Virus record (IMG/VR): IMGVR_UViG_3300029448_000474
Location: 1,038 to 22,799 of that record
Length of the DNA stretch: 21,762 nt
Source: a virus
Reading direction: 5' to 3' (one strand)
Shown: positions 11,812 through 18,725 of the stretch, piece by piece
Layout: every line of letters begins with the position of its first letter
How positions within the stretch are numbered: the first letter of the stretch is position 1
The notes under the pieces: generated by a model
Told to the model about the DNA's origin: nothing
Seen by the model: the letters and a program-made list of their open reading frames with translations, nothing else
Databases searched by the model: none
Position numbers and translations under genes: made by a program

Positions 11812-13380
11812 CTAATATCCAAATGTTGAGTCAGCAGCTTGAAAGCCTGTCCTGTGTGATACAGGATTATAATCCCACAAAGAGCTACGTGGTCTTGTCA
11901 TTATACCATACCTTAGTGCATCGTACAAGTGGTCTTCTGAGTTTGTGTCTACATCCTCTGGGTTTCTTTTGTCTAACGGTATACCGGGAAGCTGTGCTAT
12001 AGTGTTGGTGCAGGAAGAAAAGAACACTAATCTTGGCTCCTCAGTGAACTCATCCACCTGCAAACGGCGGTGTAGCTCATTCTTACCTGCCACCCTTGAA
12101 CCTTTGGAACGATCAGAAGGACGCCACCGCAATCCTTTCTGGTTCATCTGTTCAGCCAATGAGGGGCCAGTGTCTCCACGCTTGTGCCACAGGGAGCTAT
12201 CCAACACGCCGTACCTGATATTGTCATCTTTCTCTGCATTTAATATCATATCCGCTAAGTCTGTTGCTGTAACTCTTGAGCAGTATAGTTCTCTATAAAC
12301 TATTAACTGTTCGCTTGGACTTACTGCTAACCAGACAACTCCTGTGTAGCTACCATACCCGTAGTCGCAAGCTCTAAATCTAGCCCAACTTCTAGGTATA
12401 TCGTGTGGATCAACTACGTGTATCTTTCTGTTAAACTCAGGGAAAGCTGCTCCCTCGTTTACATCCCAGTTCCCTTCTAGTAACTGCTTTCTTTGATGCT
12501 CTGGTAGTGACAAAAGCATAGCTTCATAGTCACCACTCTCAGCTAAATAAGGATTATCAAAGAGACTAGCAGGTATAAACCTCCGTTTAAATAGGGGTTG
12601 ACCAGCTTTACTATGCCCTTGTGGAAACTTTAAAACCTCACTAGTCTCAATGTCCGTTGCCCAGAAAGGCGTATTAGGTTTAGCTGGGTCAATGAACATC
12701 TTCTTAACCCAAGCGTGACCGGGACCACCGGGGTTTGTTGTTGCTCTCATGTACAAACCTAAGTCTTTGTTTGCACTACGTAATCTTGAACGCATGTAGT
12801 TCCACGAGTAGGGACTGTTCCATTGAGTCAACTCATCGAAAGCTACATAATTAAATGCTTGCCCTTGATACCGCATAACGTCTGTGTCTCTATCTAGGTA
12901 AGACATCCACAGTGTGCCACCTCTGGGTGTAGTCCACTGGGACTTACGCTCTGACCACTTGATGTTGGGTATAGCTTTAGGGTATAGCTCTTGGCTTTTC
13001 TGTATTAGTTCCCTTAGTTCTTCTGTTGTGTGTCGTACTAGCAGCCCACTAAAGTCTGGATTGTTTAAGTTACGCAAGGGATCAGCTAGTGTTGCATAGC
13101 TTTTCCCACCTCCTGCTGCCCCACCGTATAGTACCTCACGTTCAGAAGATGCTAAGTATTGTGTTTGTGGGCCGGGGTTAGGTTGAAAAACGACACTCTG
13201 TGCTTGCTTTACGTCATACTCTGGGGGCTTAACTTGTGCTGGCTGTGTCGTTATCTTCTTCGTAGGCGTAGGCTCCTGTTCTTTCTTTTTCGAGGATTTC
13301 GATCTGACGTAACGCCTTTTCGAGCCGCTTGGCATACTGGCGTTTAATCTTAGTAATCCTCTTTCGCTTTCTTTCGACAT
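11812..13380 (-). CDS. terL: Terminase large subunit (522 aa)
   Basis: This is the packaging motor and nuclease. The ATPase half has a Walker A loop GGAAGGGKS at residues 86-94 and a Walker B YVAFDEL at 178-184, with D182/E183 as metal and catalytic residues. The nuclease half shows the RNase H-like acidic set: FRACDYG (D339), GVLDSS (D394) and EDHLYDALRYG (D483/D487). All key residues are intact. The ATG at 13380 lies inside the preceding gene, giving a 152-base out-of-frame overlap, and the first 60 residues are a Lys/Ser-rich unstructured extension. A later ATG (residue 16) lacks a better ribosome site, so the first is kept, with the exact start uncertain. Confidence 0.96.
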   Translation of the reverse strand: MSKESERGLLRLNASMPSGSKRRYVRSKSSKKKEQEPTPTKKITTQPAQVKPPEYDVKQAQSVVFQPNPGPQTQYLASSEREVLYGGAAGGGKSYATLADPLRNLNNPDFSGLLVRHTTEELRELIQKSQELYPKAIPNIKWSERKSQWTTPRGGTLWMSYLDRDTDVMRYQGQAFNYVAFDELTQWNSPYSWNYMRSRLRSANKDLGLYMRATTNPGGPGHAWVKKMFIDPAKPNTPFWATDIETSEVLKFPQGHSKAGQPLFKRRFIPASLFDNPYLAESGDYEAMLLSLPEHQRKQLLEGNWDVNEGAAFPEFNRKIHVVDPHDIPRSWARFRACDYGYGSYTGVVWLAVSPSEQLIVYRELYCSRVTATDLADMILNAEKDDNIRYGVLDSSLWHKRGDTGPSLAEQMNQKGLRWRPSDRSKGSRVAGKNELHRRLQVDEFTEEPRLVFFSSCTNTIAQLPGIPLDKRNPEDVDTNSEDHLYDALRYGIMTRPRSSLWDYNPVSHRTGFQAADSTFGY

Positions 13381-13675
13381 CTAATCTTTTCTTTAAACCG
13401 TAATGTGATATGCTTTTACCTGACTGTGTGGTTAGCCAAGCTGCAACTTGTCTCAAGCTGTACTGCTTTACGTGCTTTCTCGCTAACTCTATTAACTCTA
13501 ACTCTGTCGATATAGGATTTAACCAATCCTCATCTTCAGGGTCTACCTCATATCCAAACGGTATATATTGGCTGAGTCTGGGTATCCGCATCCAGAGTTT
13601 TGCTTTGTAAGGAACTCTAGGAAGCATCCAGTATTCATGCTGTAGGGGTCTTTCATTCTTCAGTTGTAGTAGCAT
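13229..13675 (-). CDS. Helix-turn-helix protein before terL (148 aa)
   Basis: ATG at 13675 follows AAAGAGAACG and overlaps the end of the small terminase gene by 23 bases. Its last 50 codons lie inside terL in another frame. A helix-turn-helix unit is clear at residues 72-98 (YSLRQVAAWLTTQSGKSISH, then YGLKKRL), followed by a strongly basic helix (VERKRKRITKIKRQYAKRLE, 100-119) and an acidic C-terminus. The family is common directly before terL in marine phages of this type. It may bind the packaging site together with, or in place of, the small terminase, or act as a late regulator. Which of the two adjacent HTH proteins recognises pac/cos cannot be decided here. Confidence 0.8.
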   Translation of the reverse strand: MLLQLKNERPLQHEYWMLPRVPYKAKLWMRIPRLSQYIPFGYEVDPEDEDWLNPISTELELIELARKHVKQYSLRQVAAWLTTQSGKSISHYGLKKRLDVERKRKRITKIKRQYAKRLEKALRQIEILEKERTGAYAYEEDNDTASTS

Positions 13676-17523: not shown

Positions 17524-17781
17524 TTAACCATACTTTCTTTCTCTGTCAGGGTCTAACACTTCGTGTCTCTCTAAATGCCCCTCTAGATACATGGCTCTCT
17601 CTACATGATCCAGTGTATACCACTCACCTGTGTTATTGTGAATAGCTTCTCTTACGTAAAACACATCCGACTTAGGTATATGTACCTTTTTCATAGCATA
17701 CGAGTTATTAGATGCTAGAGCACTGTAAAAATCCTCTATAACACTTTCACTCTCATATAGTTGTACACGTTTCTTCTTCAT
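17524..17781 (-). CDS. First gene of the leftward block, unknown (85 aa)
   Basis: A TTG two codons upstream (17787) is possible, but the ATG at 17781 is preferred; neither has a clear ribosome site. The protein is MKKKRVQLYESESVIEDFYS at the start, then a segment with VFYVREAIHNNTGEWYTLDH and VERAMYLEGHLERHEV that I recall from marine phage proteins of unknown function. It looks soluble and mixed alpha/beta, without known motif. A TTGACA box overlaps the start region (17787-17782), so a shorter product from a downstream Met (residue 30) is conceivable. Confidence 0.7.
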   Translation of the reverse strand: MKKKRVQLYESESVIEDFYSALASNNSYAMKKVHIPKSDVFYVREAIHNNTGEWYTLDHVERAMYLEGHLERHEVLDPDRERKYG

Positions 17782-17814
17782 TGTCAATACATATTTAACT
17801 TAAACTGGGAAAAA

Positions 17815-17891
17815 AGTGTTACAAGTACATATAAAGTACTGGGAGAGAGGAGACACATGAGAGGGCAATACCCTATTGTGCTTGTAACACT
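17815..17891. repeat. Inverted repeat AGTGTTACAAG / CTTGTAACACT
   Basis: Two perfect 11-bp arms at 17815-17825 and 17881-17891 face each other across 55 bp. With one mismatch the match extends inward by four bases (AGTGTTACAAGyACA). Beyond that both arms continue with an ATA(AAG/GGG)TA(C/T)TG pattern if one base is skipped. They could be operators or two facing promoter elements. Confidence 0.65.
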
Positions 17892-17901
17892 GTTAGTTTA
17901 A
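17857..17901 (+). CDS. 14-codon leader-peptide candidate
   Basis: GAGGAG four bases before ATG 17857 is a strong ribosome site, and the 10-base stretch GGAGACACA plus A/T is shared with the ribosome site of the early gene at 20522. The peptide is MRGQYPIVLVTLLV, hydrophobic after the first five residues. Its stop overlaps the first AGTTTAACTATA repeat. It may be a leader peptide for the rightward transcript, a tiny membrane peptide, or a nonfunctional remnant. Confidence 0.35.
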   Translation: MRGQYPIVLVTLLV

Positions 17902-18062
17902 CTATAGTTTATTGTTATTATAGTTATAAAATAATATTAACACAGTTTACGTATAGTTGTCAATAGGTTTTATTATATTTATTTAATTAATCCTTAGTTT
18001 AACTATAAGTTTAACTATATTATAATCGATTTATAATAGTTTTAACTCTATGTTTAACTATA
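17895..18062. repeat. Iteron-like AGTTTAACTATA repeats
   Basis: The 12-mer AGTTTAACTATA occurs at 17895-17906, 17996-18007 and 18008-18019 (the last two exactly in tandem), with an 11/12 copy TGTTTAACTATA at 18051-18062 and a degenerate copy at 18038-18050. Copy 1 also forms a perfect palindrome AACTATAGTT (17900-17909). The surrounding DNA is nearly pure A/T. Repeated sites in an AT-rich, noncoding region are typical of replication origins or multi-site operators. Confidence 0.65.
17934..17963 (-). promoter_or_regulatory. Sigma70-like promoter candidate towards late genes
   Basis: A perfect TTGACA (17963-17958) with TAATAT (17939-17934) 18 bases downstream on the minus strand, pointing at the leftward block. 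The -10 box matches four of six positions in a very AT-rich setting, so a chance match is possible. Confidence 0.4.
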
Positions 18063-18078
18063 CTACTTCTACTTCGTA

Positions 18079-18106
18079 GTTTTACACAAGTATTACCCCT
18101 TGTCAA
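18079..18106 (-). promoter_or_regulatory. Second TTGACA promoter candidate towards late genes
   Basis: TTGACA (18106-18101) and TAAAAC (18084-18079) are separated by 16 bases, the same spacing and same terminal AAC as the capsid promoter at 5965-5992. It would transcribe leftward through the repeat region. Confidence 0.4.
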
Positions 18107-18141
18107 TATGTAAAATACACTATCATTGTATAATAATCCAT

Positions 18142-18188
18142 GTGTGTTGCTGTTTGAACACAGTAAAAGTAAAAACCCCGTGTGTTGC
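18142..18188 (+). repeat. Direct repeat GTGTGTTGC
   Basis: Nine identical bases at 18142-18150 and 18180-18188, 38 bp apart, flank a short segment with TGTTTGAACA. The function is unknown. Confidence 0.4.
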
Positions 18189-18210
18189 AGAGTACATATA
18201 CATATACGGT

Positions 18211-18256
18211 AGACCCCCCTGTGGCCCTCGCCGGGGCCTGATGTCGCTGCTGGTCT
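18211..18256 (+). ncRNA. GC-rich structured element, possible small RNA
   Basis: A sharp GC-rich island in AT-rich DNA. AGACC (18211-18215) can pair with GGTCT (18252-18256), enclosing a second stem GGCCC/GGGCC (18223-18227 with 18234-18238) around a six-base loop. The element is followed by T-rich sequence on the plus strand. It does not match tRNA. A folded regulatory RNA or protein-binding site is possible; no family is recognised. Confidence 0.35.
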
Positions 18257-18357
18257 TTGAAGTGTCGGTTTTGTTACATTCTTTGCTGTAGGTTTTGTCT
18301 CTTTTGTTTGCTGCTGCTGTATTCTGCTGATAAAGTATTGTTTTTATTACAGATTAT

Positions 18358-18376
18358 TACTGATATGCTGTCAGTA
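18358..18376. repeat. Palindromic site TACTGA-N7-TCAGTA
   Basis: Six-base perfect arms at 18358-18363 and 18371-18376 with a seven-base centre. It is one of four similar dyads within 300 bp upstream of the early genes and could be an operator half-site pair. Confidence 0.4.
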
Positions 18377-18408
18377 CATAAGGAAATTGTGGGTAAAACA
18401 GTATAGAT

Positions 18409-18424
18409 TTGAACAACCGTTCAA
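18409..18424. promoter_or_regulatory. Perfect 16-bp dyad TTGAAC-AACC-GTTCAA
   Basis: The core GAAC-N4-GTTC has the form of the LexA box of Bacillus-like bacteria and not the alphaproteobacterial GTTC-N7-GTTC. It lies in the control region about 300 bp before the first rightward gene. It may be an SOS-type or phage-repressor operator. Confidence 0.45.
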
Positions 18425-18451
18425 TTAACTAGGTTTGGATGTACAAAACAC

Positions 18452-18553
18452 CAAAGCAATACAATTCCAAACAATCCCAAAAAGAAAAGCTCTATTCTAT
18501 ACCCTATCCCATACAAAGCATTGCAGCATATACTACCCTCTAAAATTGCTTTG
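18452..18553. repeat. Inverted repeat CAAAGCAAT / ATTGCTTTG
   Basis: Perfect nine-base arms at 18452-18460 and 18545-18553, 84 bp apart. The distance is long for a simple hairpin. They could be paired protein sites or chance. Confidence 0.35.
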
Positions 18554-18558
18554 CCTAT

Positions 18559-18571
18559 GTCAGCAGCTGAC
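18559..18571. promoter_or_regulatory. Perfect palindrome GTCAGCAGCTGAC
   Basis: Six-base arms around a single central A, 13 bp in all. It lies 155 bp before the first rightward gene and 67 bp before the larger palindrome at 18639, so it may be a second operator. Confidence 0.4.
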
Positions 18572-18638
18572 CTATGTGCTGCAAATGCCCCCATTGATTT
18601 TAAACAATAAATTTTTTAAAACTCACATATTTATCAAA

Positions 18639-18653
18639 GTGACGTTACGTCAC
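18639..18653. promoter_or_regulatory. Operator-like palindrome GTGACGTTACGTCAC
   Basis: A 15-bp perfect dyad with seven-base arms and one central base, lying directly upstream of a -10-like TATACT (18676-18681) and over the expected -35 position. A protein bound here would control the first rightward gene at 18726. There is no good -35 box, which fits either an activated promoter or an operator. Confidence 0.5.
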
Positions 18654-18675
18654 AATTGCACTTTTTTGAATAGTC

Positions 18676-18681
18676 TATACT
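18676..18681 (+). promoter_or_regulatory. -10-like box of the rightward block
   Basis: TATACT lies 45 bases before the ATG at 18726. The only -35-like hexamer (TTGCAC, 18656-18661) is 14 bases away, which is too short, so the promoter may need an activator. Confidence 0.4.
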
Positions 18682-18725
18682 GAAGGTTTTATCTTTTAAC
18701 TTTTGATCTTTAGAAAGGGTCTACC

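Follow-up and report, generated by a model that had tools for sequence, protein, structure and literature searches.

A paired-box control region with two predicted leftward promoters and a putative structured leader RNA in an HMO-2011-type marine podovirus

The stretch of DNA analysed here (the window; 21,762 nucleotides) is part of a 22.8-kb virus record. Because its terminase large subunit shares 72-82% identity with the corresponding proteins of the isolates CRP-603, CRP-2, CRP-207, CRP-9, CRP-1 and CRP-13 and of HMO-2011, the window is assigned on sequence grounds to an HMO-2011-type marine podovirus. It contains a gap of 940 bp in which the ORF list places no supported gene, and which separates a leftward structural and packaging unit from a rightward early and replication unit (Table 1). 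An earlier note on this DNA had placed a group of 12-nucleotide repeats in a noncoding region between divergent transcription units, and this description of the locus was borne out. An equivalent gap is present at the matching place in all the phages named above and in CRP-345. A contig from another record (G006), near-identical to the window, extends rightward and codes for a tyrosine integrase and for primase-, helicase- and polymerase-like proteins. The first leftward gene begins TTGACAATG (17779-17787), with a TTGACA word abutting the ATG, and MTM is the start of its protein in all aligned relatives. Another contig, G001 (58.6 kb; L115-L117), has a control region at either end, and the two differ. 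The left one lies at L115:3142-4157 and the right one is almost identical to that of the window; G001 is probably an assembly chimera of two strains.

Table 1. Coordinates of the features in and beside the control region (positions in the window)
Feature	Position	Strand	Basis or remark
First leftward gene; conserved protein of 87 aa (or 85 aa) with no assigned function	17524-17787	-	ORF list and relatives
Noncoding control region	17788-18725		ORF list; between leftward structural/packaging and rightward early/replication units
Predicted leader stem-loop SL2	17815-17891	-	Pyrimidine-rich UGUCUCCUCUCC in the loop, then a U run
Box in 12-mer copy 1 (17895-17906), also 3' arm of SL1	17896-17902	+	Partner 12 bp away degenerate (GTTTATT)
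Predicted leader stem-loop SL1 (UAACUAUA / UAUAGUUA)	17899-17926	-	Predicted 5' end of the P2 transcript
Predicted promoter P2	17934-17963	-	-35 TTGACA (17963-17958), 18-nt spacer, -10 TAATAT (17939-17934)
Pair B, degenerate: GTTTACG-TATA-GTTGTC	17944-17961	+	Between P2 -35 and -10, overlaps -35
Pair C: GTTTAAC-TATAA-GTTTAAC (tandem 12-mers)	17997-18015	+	Sequence
Pair D: GTTTTAAC-TCTAT-GTTTAAC	18039-18058	+	About +14 to +33 of P1; P1-locked in relatives
Predicted promoter P1	18079-18106	-	-35 TTGACA (18106-18101), 16-nt spacer, -10 TAAAAC (18084-18079)

The 12-mer AGTTTAACTATA occurs exactly at 17895-17906, 17996-18007 and 18008-18019, the latter two copies being in direct tandem, with an 11/12 variant at 18051-18062 and a degenerate 10/12 variant at 17944-17955. 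All copies reported earlier were thus recovered at their places, and they far exceed the shuffle expectation: four matches with at most one mismatch lie in 17788-18300, where 1000 dinucleotide shuffles gave 0.04 on average and never more than 2, and a 12-mer with three exact copies was seen in 0 of 2000 shuffles. The 22.8-kb record has no further exact copy. Two elements had been missed, namely the half-site GTTTTAAC at 18039-18046, which is the partner of the copy at 18051, and the coincidence of the first 12-mer copy with one arm of a predicted RNA hairpin.

The window was compared with 37 relatives, giving 38 nonredundant sequences, and boxes were counted over the 430 nt next to the first leftward gene. 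All counts given below are over related sequences and do not represent independent events. GTTWWAAC-type boxes number 203 in the 38 sequences, compared to 16.7 in shuffles, and 68 pairs of neighbouring boxes have their centres 12-14 bp apart, compared to about 0.1 in shuffles. The control region therefore contains repeated dyad-symmetric sites of the kind that make up an operator array, and the unit is a dyad, GTTWWAAC-N5/6-GTTWWAAC, of about 20 bp per pair. The 12-mer, which had been described as an iteron-like unit, is half of such a dyad. In those near-complete genomes in which the pair pattern matched, it is limited to the control region, and it is absent from G006, which holds the rest of the near-identical genome; a shorter 9-mer has a few scattered copies outside the control region in the near-complete genomes searched.

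Two sigma70-type promoters were predicted on the minus strand, with starts near 18072 (P1) and 17927 (P2). A TTGACA-17/18-TANNNT-like element is found at the P2 place in all 38 sequences, and the P1 element, TTGACW-16-TAWAAC, in 36, the remaining two sequences ending short of P1; HMO-2011 has TTGACA-17-TATAAT at the P1 place. The region is AT-rich, single -10 matches are weak when taken one by one, and a local scan revealed no excess of promoters in the window. A plus-strand candidate, TTAACT-16-TATAAT at 17999-18026, was dropped, as it is not conserved across clades. A generic search for the best dyad near P1 was too noisy in such AT-rich DNA, and box-based measures were used instead.

The boxes occupy constant positions on these predicted promoters. 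The end of the outermost dyad, pair D, lies 18-22 nt from the P1 -10 element in 34 of the 36 sequences, and in the two outliers, where this gap is 32 nt, a last box with one mismatch is found at the usual place. The D-P1 gap is fixed while the distance between P1 and P2 varies from 91 to 245 nt. An exact box is present inside the P2 core in 24 of the 38 sequences; pair B is absent in some relatives and degenerate in the window. Such rigid placement on promoters fits the needs of an operator, whereas a replication origin would not need it.

The earlier note had offered the repeats as a replication origin or a cooperative operator. One rival explanation, which we consider improbable, is that the boxes are iterons at which a phage initiator opens the AT-rich DNA of 17906-18040 to start replication. 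The AT-rich stretch, the direct repeats and a nearby minimum of the cumulative GC skew all speak for it, and in the first two respects the region resembles plasmid and phage iteron origins. GC skew was computed on contig G001 and on CRP-603, followed by the skew of the coding strand. The minimum that the earlier note had suggested looking for does fall near the repeats, but it fails as a sign of an origin: the coding strand is rich in G on the early side (+0.090) as on the late side (+0.077), and the third-position skew is about 0 or negative, so that gene orientation alone explains the minimum, which is silent on replication. No skew inflection beyond gene orientation was found. The units are, moreover, dyads locked to P1, and boxes that serve an initiator could do without a constant distance from a promoter. 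The gap has no recognised DnaA boxes, and the replication proteins recognised among the scanned genes are only helicase, primase, polymerase and nucleases, with no recognisable iteron initiator, although an initiator of an unrecognised family is possible. Operators and an origin could also share one region. The operator half of the earlier proposal is thus upheld by the fixed place of the boxes on two conserved promoters, by their dyad symmetry and by the switch of specificity in a sister clade described below, whereas the origin half is not.

The sister clade comprises 41 nonredundant sequences whose first-gene protein is of a different type. P1 was found in 38 of the 41, and P2 in none of 38. 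The 41 sequences contain just four GTTWWAAC boxes; 30 of them carry instead a CACTT..AAGTG dyad, which in 27 of the 30 is centred 27.5-29.5 nt from the P1 -10 element, i.e. at the place of pair D. No such dyad exists in the clade of the window. Differing boxes are also found among CRP-1, CRP-2, CRP-9 and CRP-13, which have a common host strain, FZCC0023. Since the boxes differ between phages of a single host strain, the protein that would bind them is probably phage-encoded. The same observation, together with the CACTT-AAGTG dyad of the sister clade, argues against an explanation to which we give little credence, by which the boxes are sites of a host regulator that couples transcription of the phage to the cell cycle of its host. 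The TTAA within the boxes recalls the half-sites of CtrA, and the hosts of CRP-type phages are alphaproteobacteria, where CtrA is common. However, the CtrA site is TTAA-N7-TTAA, and the gap from TTAA to TTAA is here 8-9 nucleotides, not 7.

As to the putative binder, no convincing helix-turn-helix protein was detected among the genes scanned with Pfam and PHROGs. The type of the first-gene protein tracks the type of box, a link that is partly a product of sampling, because the relatives were retrieved through this very protein. The 87-aa protein itself may be the binder, but CRP-207 has nearly the same predicted-helix sequence and carries GTGTTAC boxes. Its AlphaFold model is all-helical and of low confidence (pLDDT 58), and no relative of it was found in the PDB. 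Between the small and large terminase genes (13229-13675), the window also encodes a conserved protein with a helix-turn-helix-like stretch, LRQVAAWLTTQSGKSISHYGLKKRL, and this protein is a candidate DNA-binding protein.

The predicted start of P2 coincides with the first bases of a stem-loop, SL1, which is directly followed by a larger one, SL2. A helix of the SL1 type, of at least 6 bp and beginning at +1 to +6, is found in all 38 sequences, compared to 9-25 in shifted controls. Similarly, all 38 sequences fold into a domain of SL2 size, whose outer arms come in 26 distinct versions; in the minimum-energy fold of about nine of them, however, SL1 itself or the boundaries of SL2 are rearranged. 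Folding of the leader gave minimum free energy z-scores of -3.2 to -7.6. The stems are wholly different in sequence between clades with the pairing kept, and the leader covaries, with changes on both sides of 11 of 35 pairs in one clade and of 3 of 28 in the window's own. A pyrimidine-rich, UCUCCUC-like word is kept in the SL2 loop, and in the window's clade a U run follows SL2, which could make SL2 a terminator. The window has no Rfam match at the gathering score, and the gap yielded only chance-level matches at relaxed thresholds. A short ORF at SL2 that has an ATG was rejected, its reading frame being lost in relatives. SL2 as an RNA of the opposite strand was likewise set aside: counts of G-U versus A-C pairs point to the minus strand in two alignments out of three and to the plus strand in that of the window's own clade, and the strand was assigned mainly from the direction of the promoter and of the operon. 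Because the first 12-mer copy is the 3' arm of SL1, this copy may serve the RNA instead of, or besides, an operator.

Taken together, we consider it probable, at roughly 70%, that the boxes are operator half-sites on two leftward promoters, forming dyads bound by a dimeric phage protein, and that the P2 transcript carries a cis-acting leader RNA. A phage-encoded dimeric DNA-binding protein would recognise two GTTWWAAC boxes, spaced 12-14 bp from centre to centre. From pair D, which lies just past the start of P1, and from pair B within P2, it would control, and most likely repress, both promoters, which would drive the leftward packaging and structural operon of about 34 kb, and pair C, between D and B, would probably assist through cooperativity or looping. 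Sites that lie within a promoter or a short way past a start are most commonly repressive, but activation is possible. The transcript from P2 would open with the two-stem-loop leader acting in cis upstream of the first gene. It might do so by modifying RNA polymerase, as in put-like antitermination, which in HK022 works through the zinc-binding domain of the polymerase beta' subunit, or by controlling translation.

The explanation that the sites are stoperators, at which a protein halts elongation from P1 rather than initiation, seems to us quite unlikely. Pairs D and C do lie downstream of P1, and box arrays oriented with transcription have a precedent in the Cluster A mycobacteriophages (PMC6550527), whose repressor sites are, like the boxes described here, repeated and lineage-specific. 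Stoperators are, however, asymmetric and spread genome-wide, whereas the sites of the window type are dyads in one control region. That the boxes are arm-type or core sites of a phage tyrosine integrase (attP) is very improbable, for although G006 encodes such an integrase and inverted boxes around a 5-6 bp spacer look like core sites, the control region has several pairs and not a single core, the positions of the pairs track the promoters, the integrase gene is about 4 kb off, and the window has no tRNA gene, whereas the integration core of CRP-3 overlaps a tRNA-Met gene (PMC6918029).

As operators, the dyads resemble the OL and OR regions of lambda and 434, where a divergent region likewise has a number of dyad operators overlapping its promoters. 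Their variation among related phages also recalls the lambdoid phages, in which differing operator sequences underlie heteroimmunity (PMC6550527). Unlike the lambdoid arrays, the boxes have no recognised cI/cro-like gene in their neighbourhood, the promoters that would be controlled lead to a packaging and structural operon, and the half-sites are near-palindromic GTTWWAAC words. The leader is similar to that of HK022 putL, which has two stem-loops just downstream of a phage promoter and ahead of a long operon (PMC9378689); the same arrangement is found here on the predicted starts, but the leader is about 140-190 nt rather than about 70 nt long, and the SL2 loop is pyrimidine-rich. We advance only tentatively, and consider rather doubtful, the further idea that SL1-SL2 represents a previously undescribed class of phage RNA acting in cis, which would start at +1 and, as a put-like antiterminator, enable the polymerase of the host to transcribe the operon. 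It would be coupled to a promoter switch whose operator specificity has diversified, in the manner of an immunity system, in a phage group that is among the most abundant in the ocean.

HMO-2011-type phages have been described as dominant and widespread in the ocean (PMC9038755), and promoters go unmentioned in the two papers on such phages that were searched for them (PMC9038755, PMC6918029). The present analysis offers a concrete map of their putative transcription control, with two predicted promoters, an operator code that varies among lineages and a leader RNA that has no match in Rfam. It leads to testable predictions on the timing of late genes and, for integrase-bearing members, on superinfection immunity between phages of one host.

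Other elements lie in the gap or on its rightward side. A block at 18175-18230, GTGTGTTGCAGAGTACATATACATATACGGTAGACCCCCCTGTGGCCC, is recognisable in the HMO-2011-type isolates inspected that have the gap, laid out as TATAAC/TATACG, then ACCCCC, then TGGCCC; it is possibly an early rightward promoter or another cis element. The gaps of CRP-603, CRP-1, CRP-13 and CRP-345 (L004, L010, L011, L012) contain TGTGATCACA palindromes, in several copies in CRP-603, and TTGTGATCACAA was not found in the gap of the window. Long hairpins precede the first rightward (early) gene in L010, L012 and L006, for example ATATCTCTC...GAGAGAGATAT in CRP-1, so that a structured leader may be present on the rightward operon as well.
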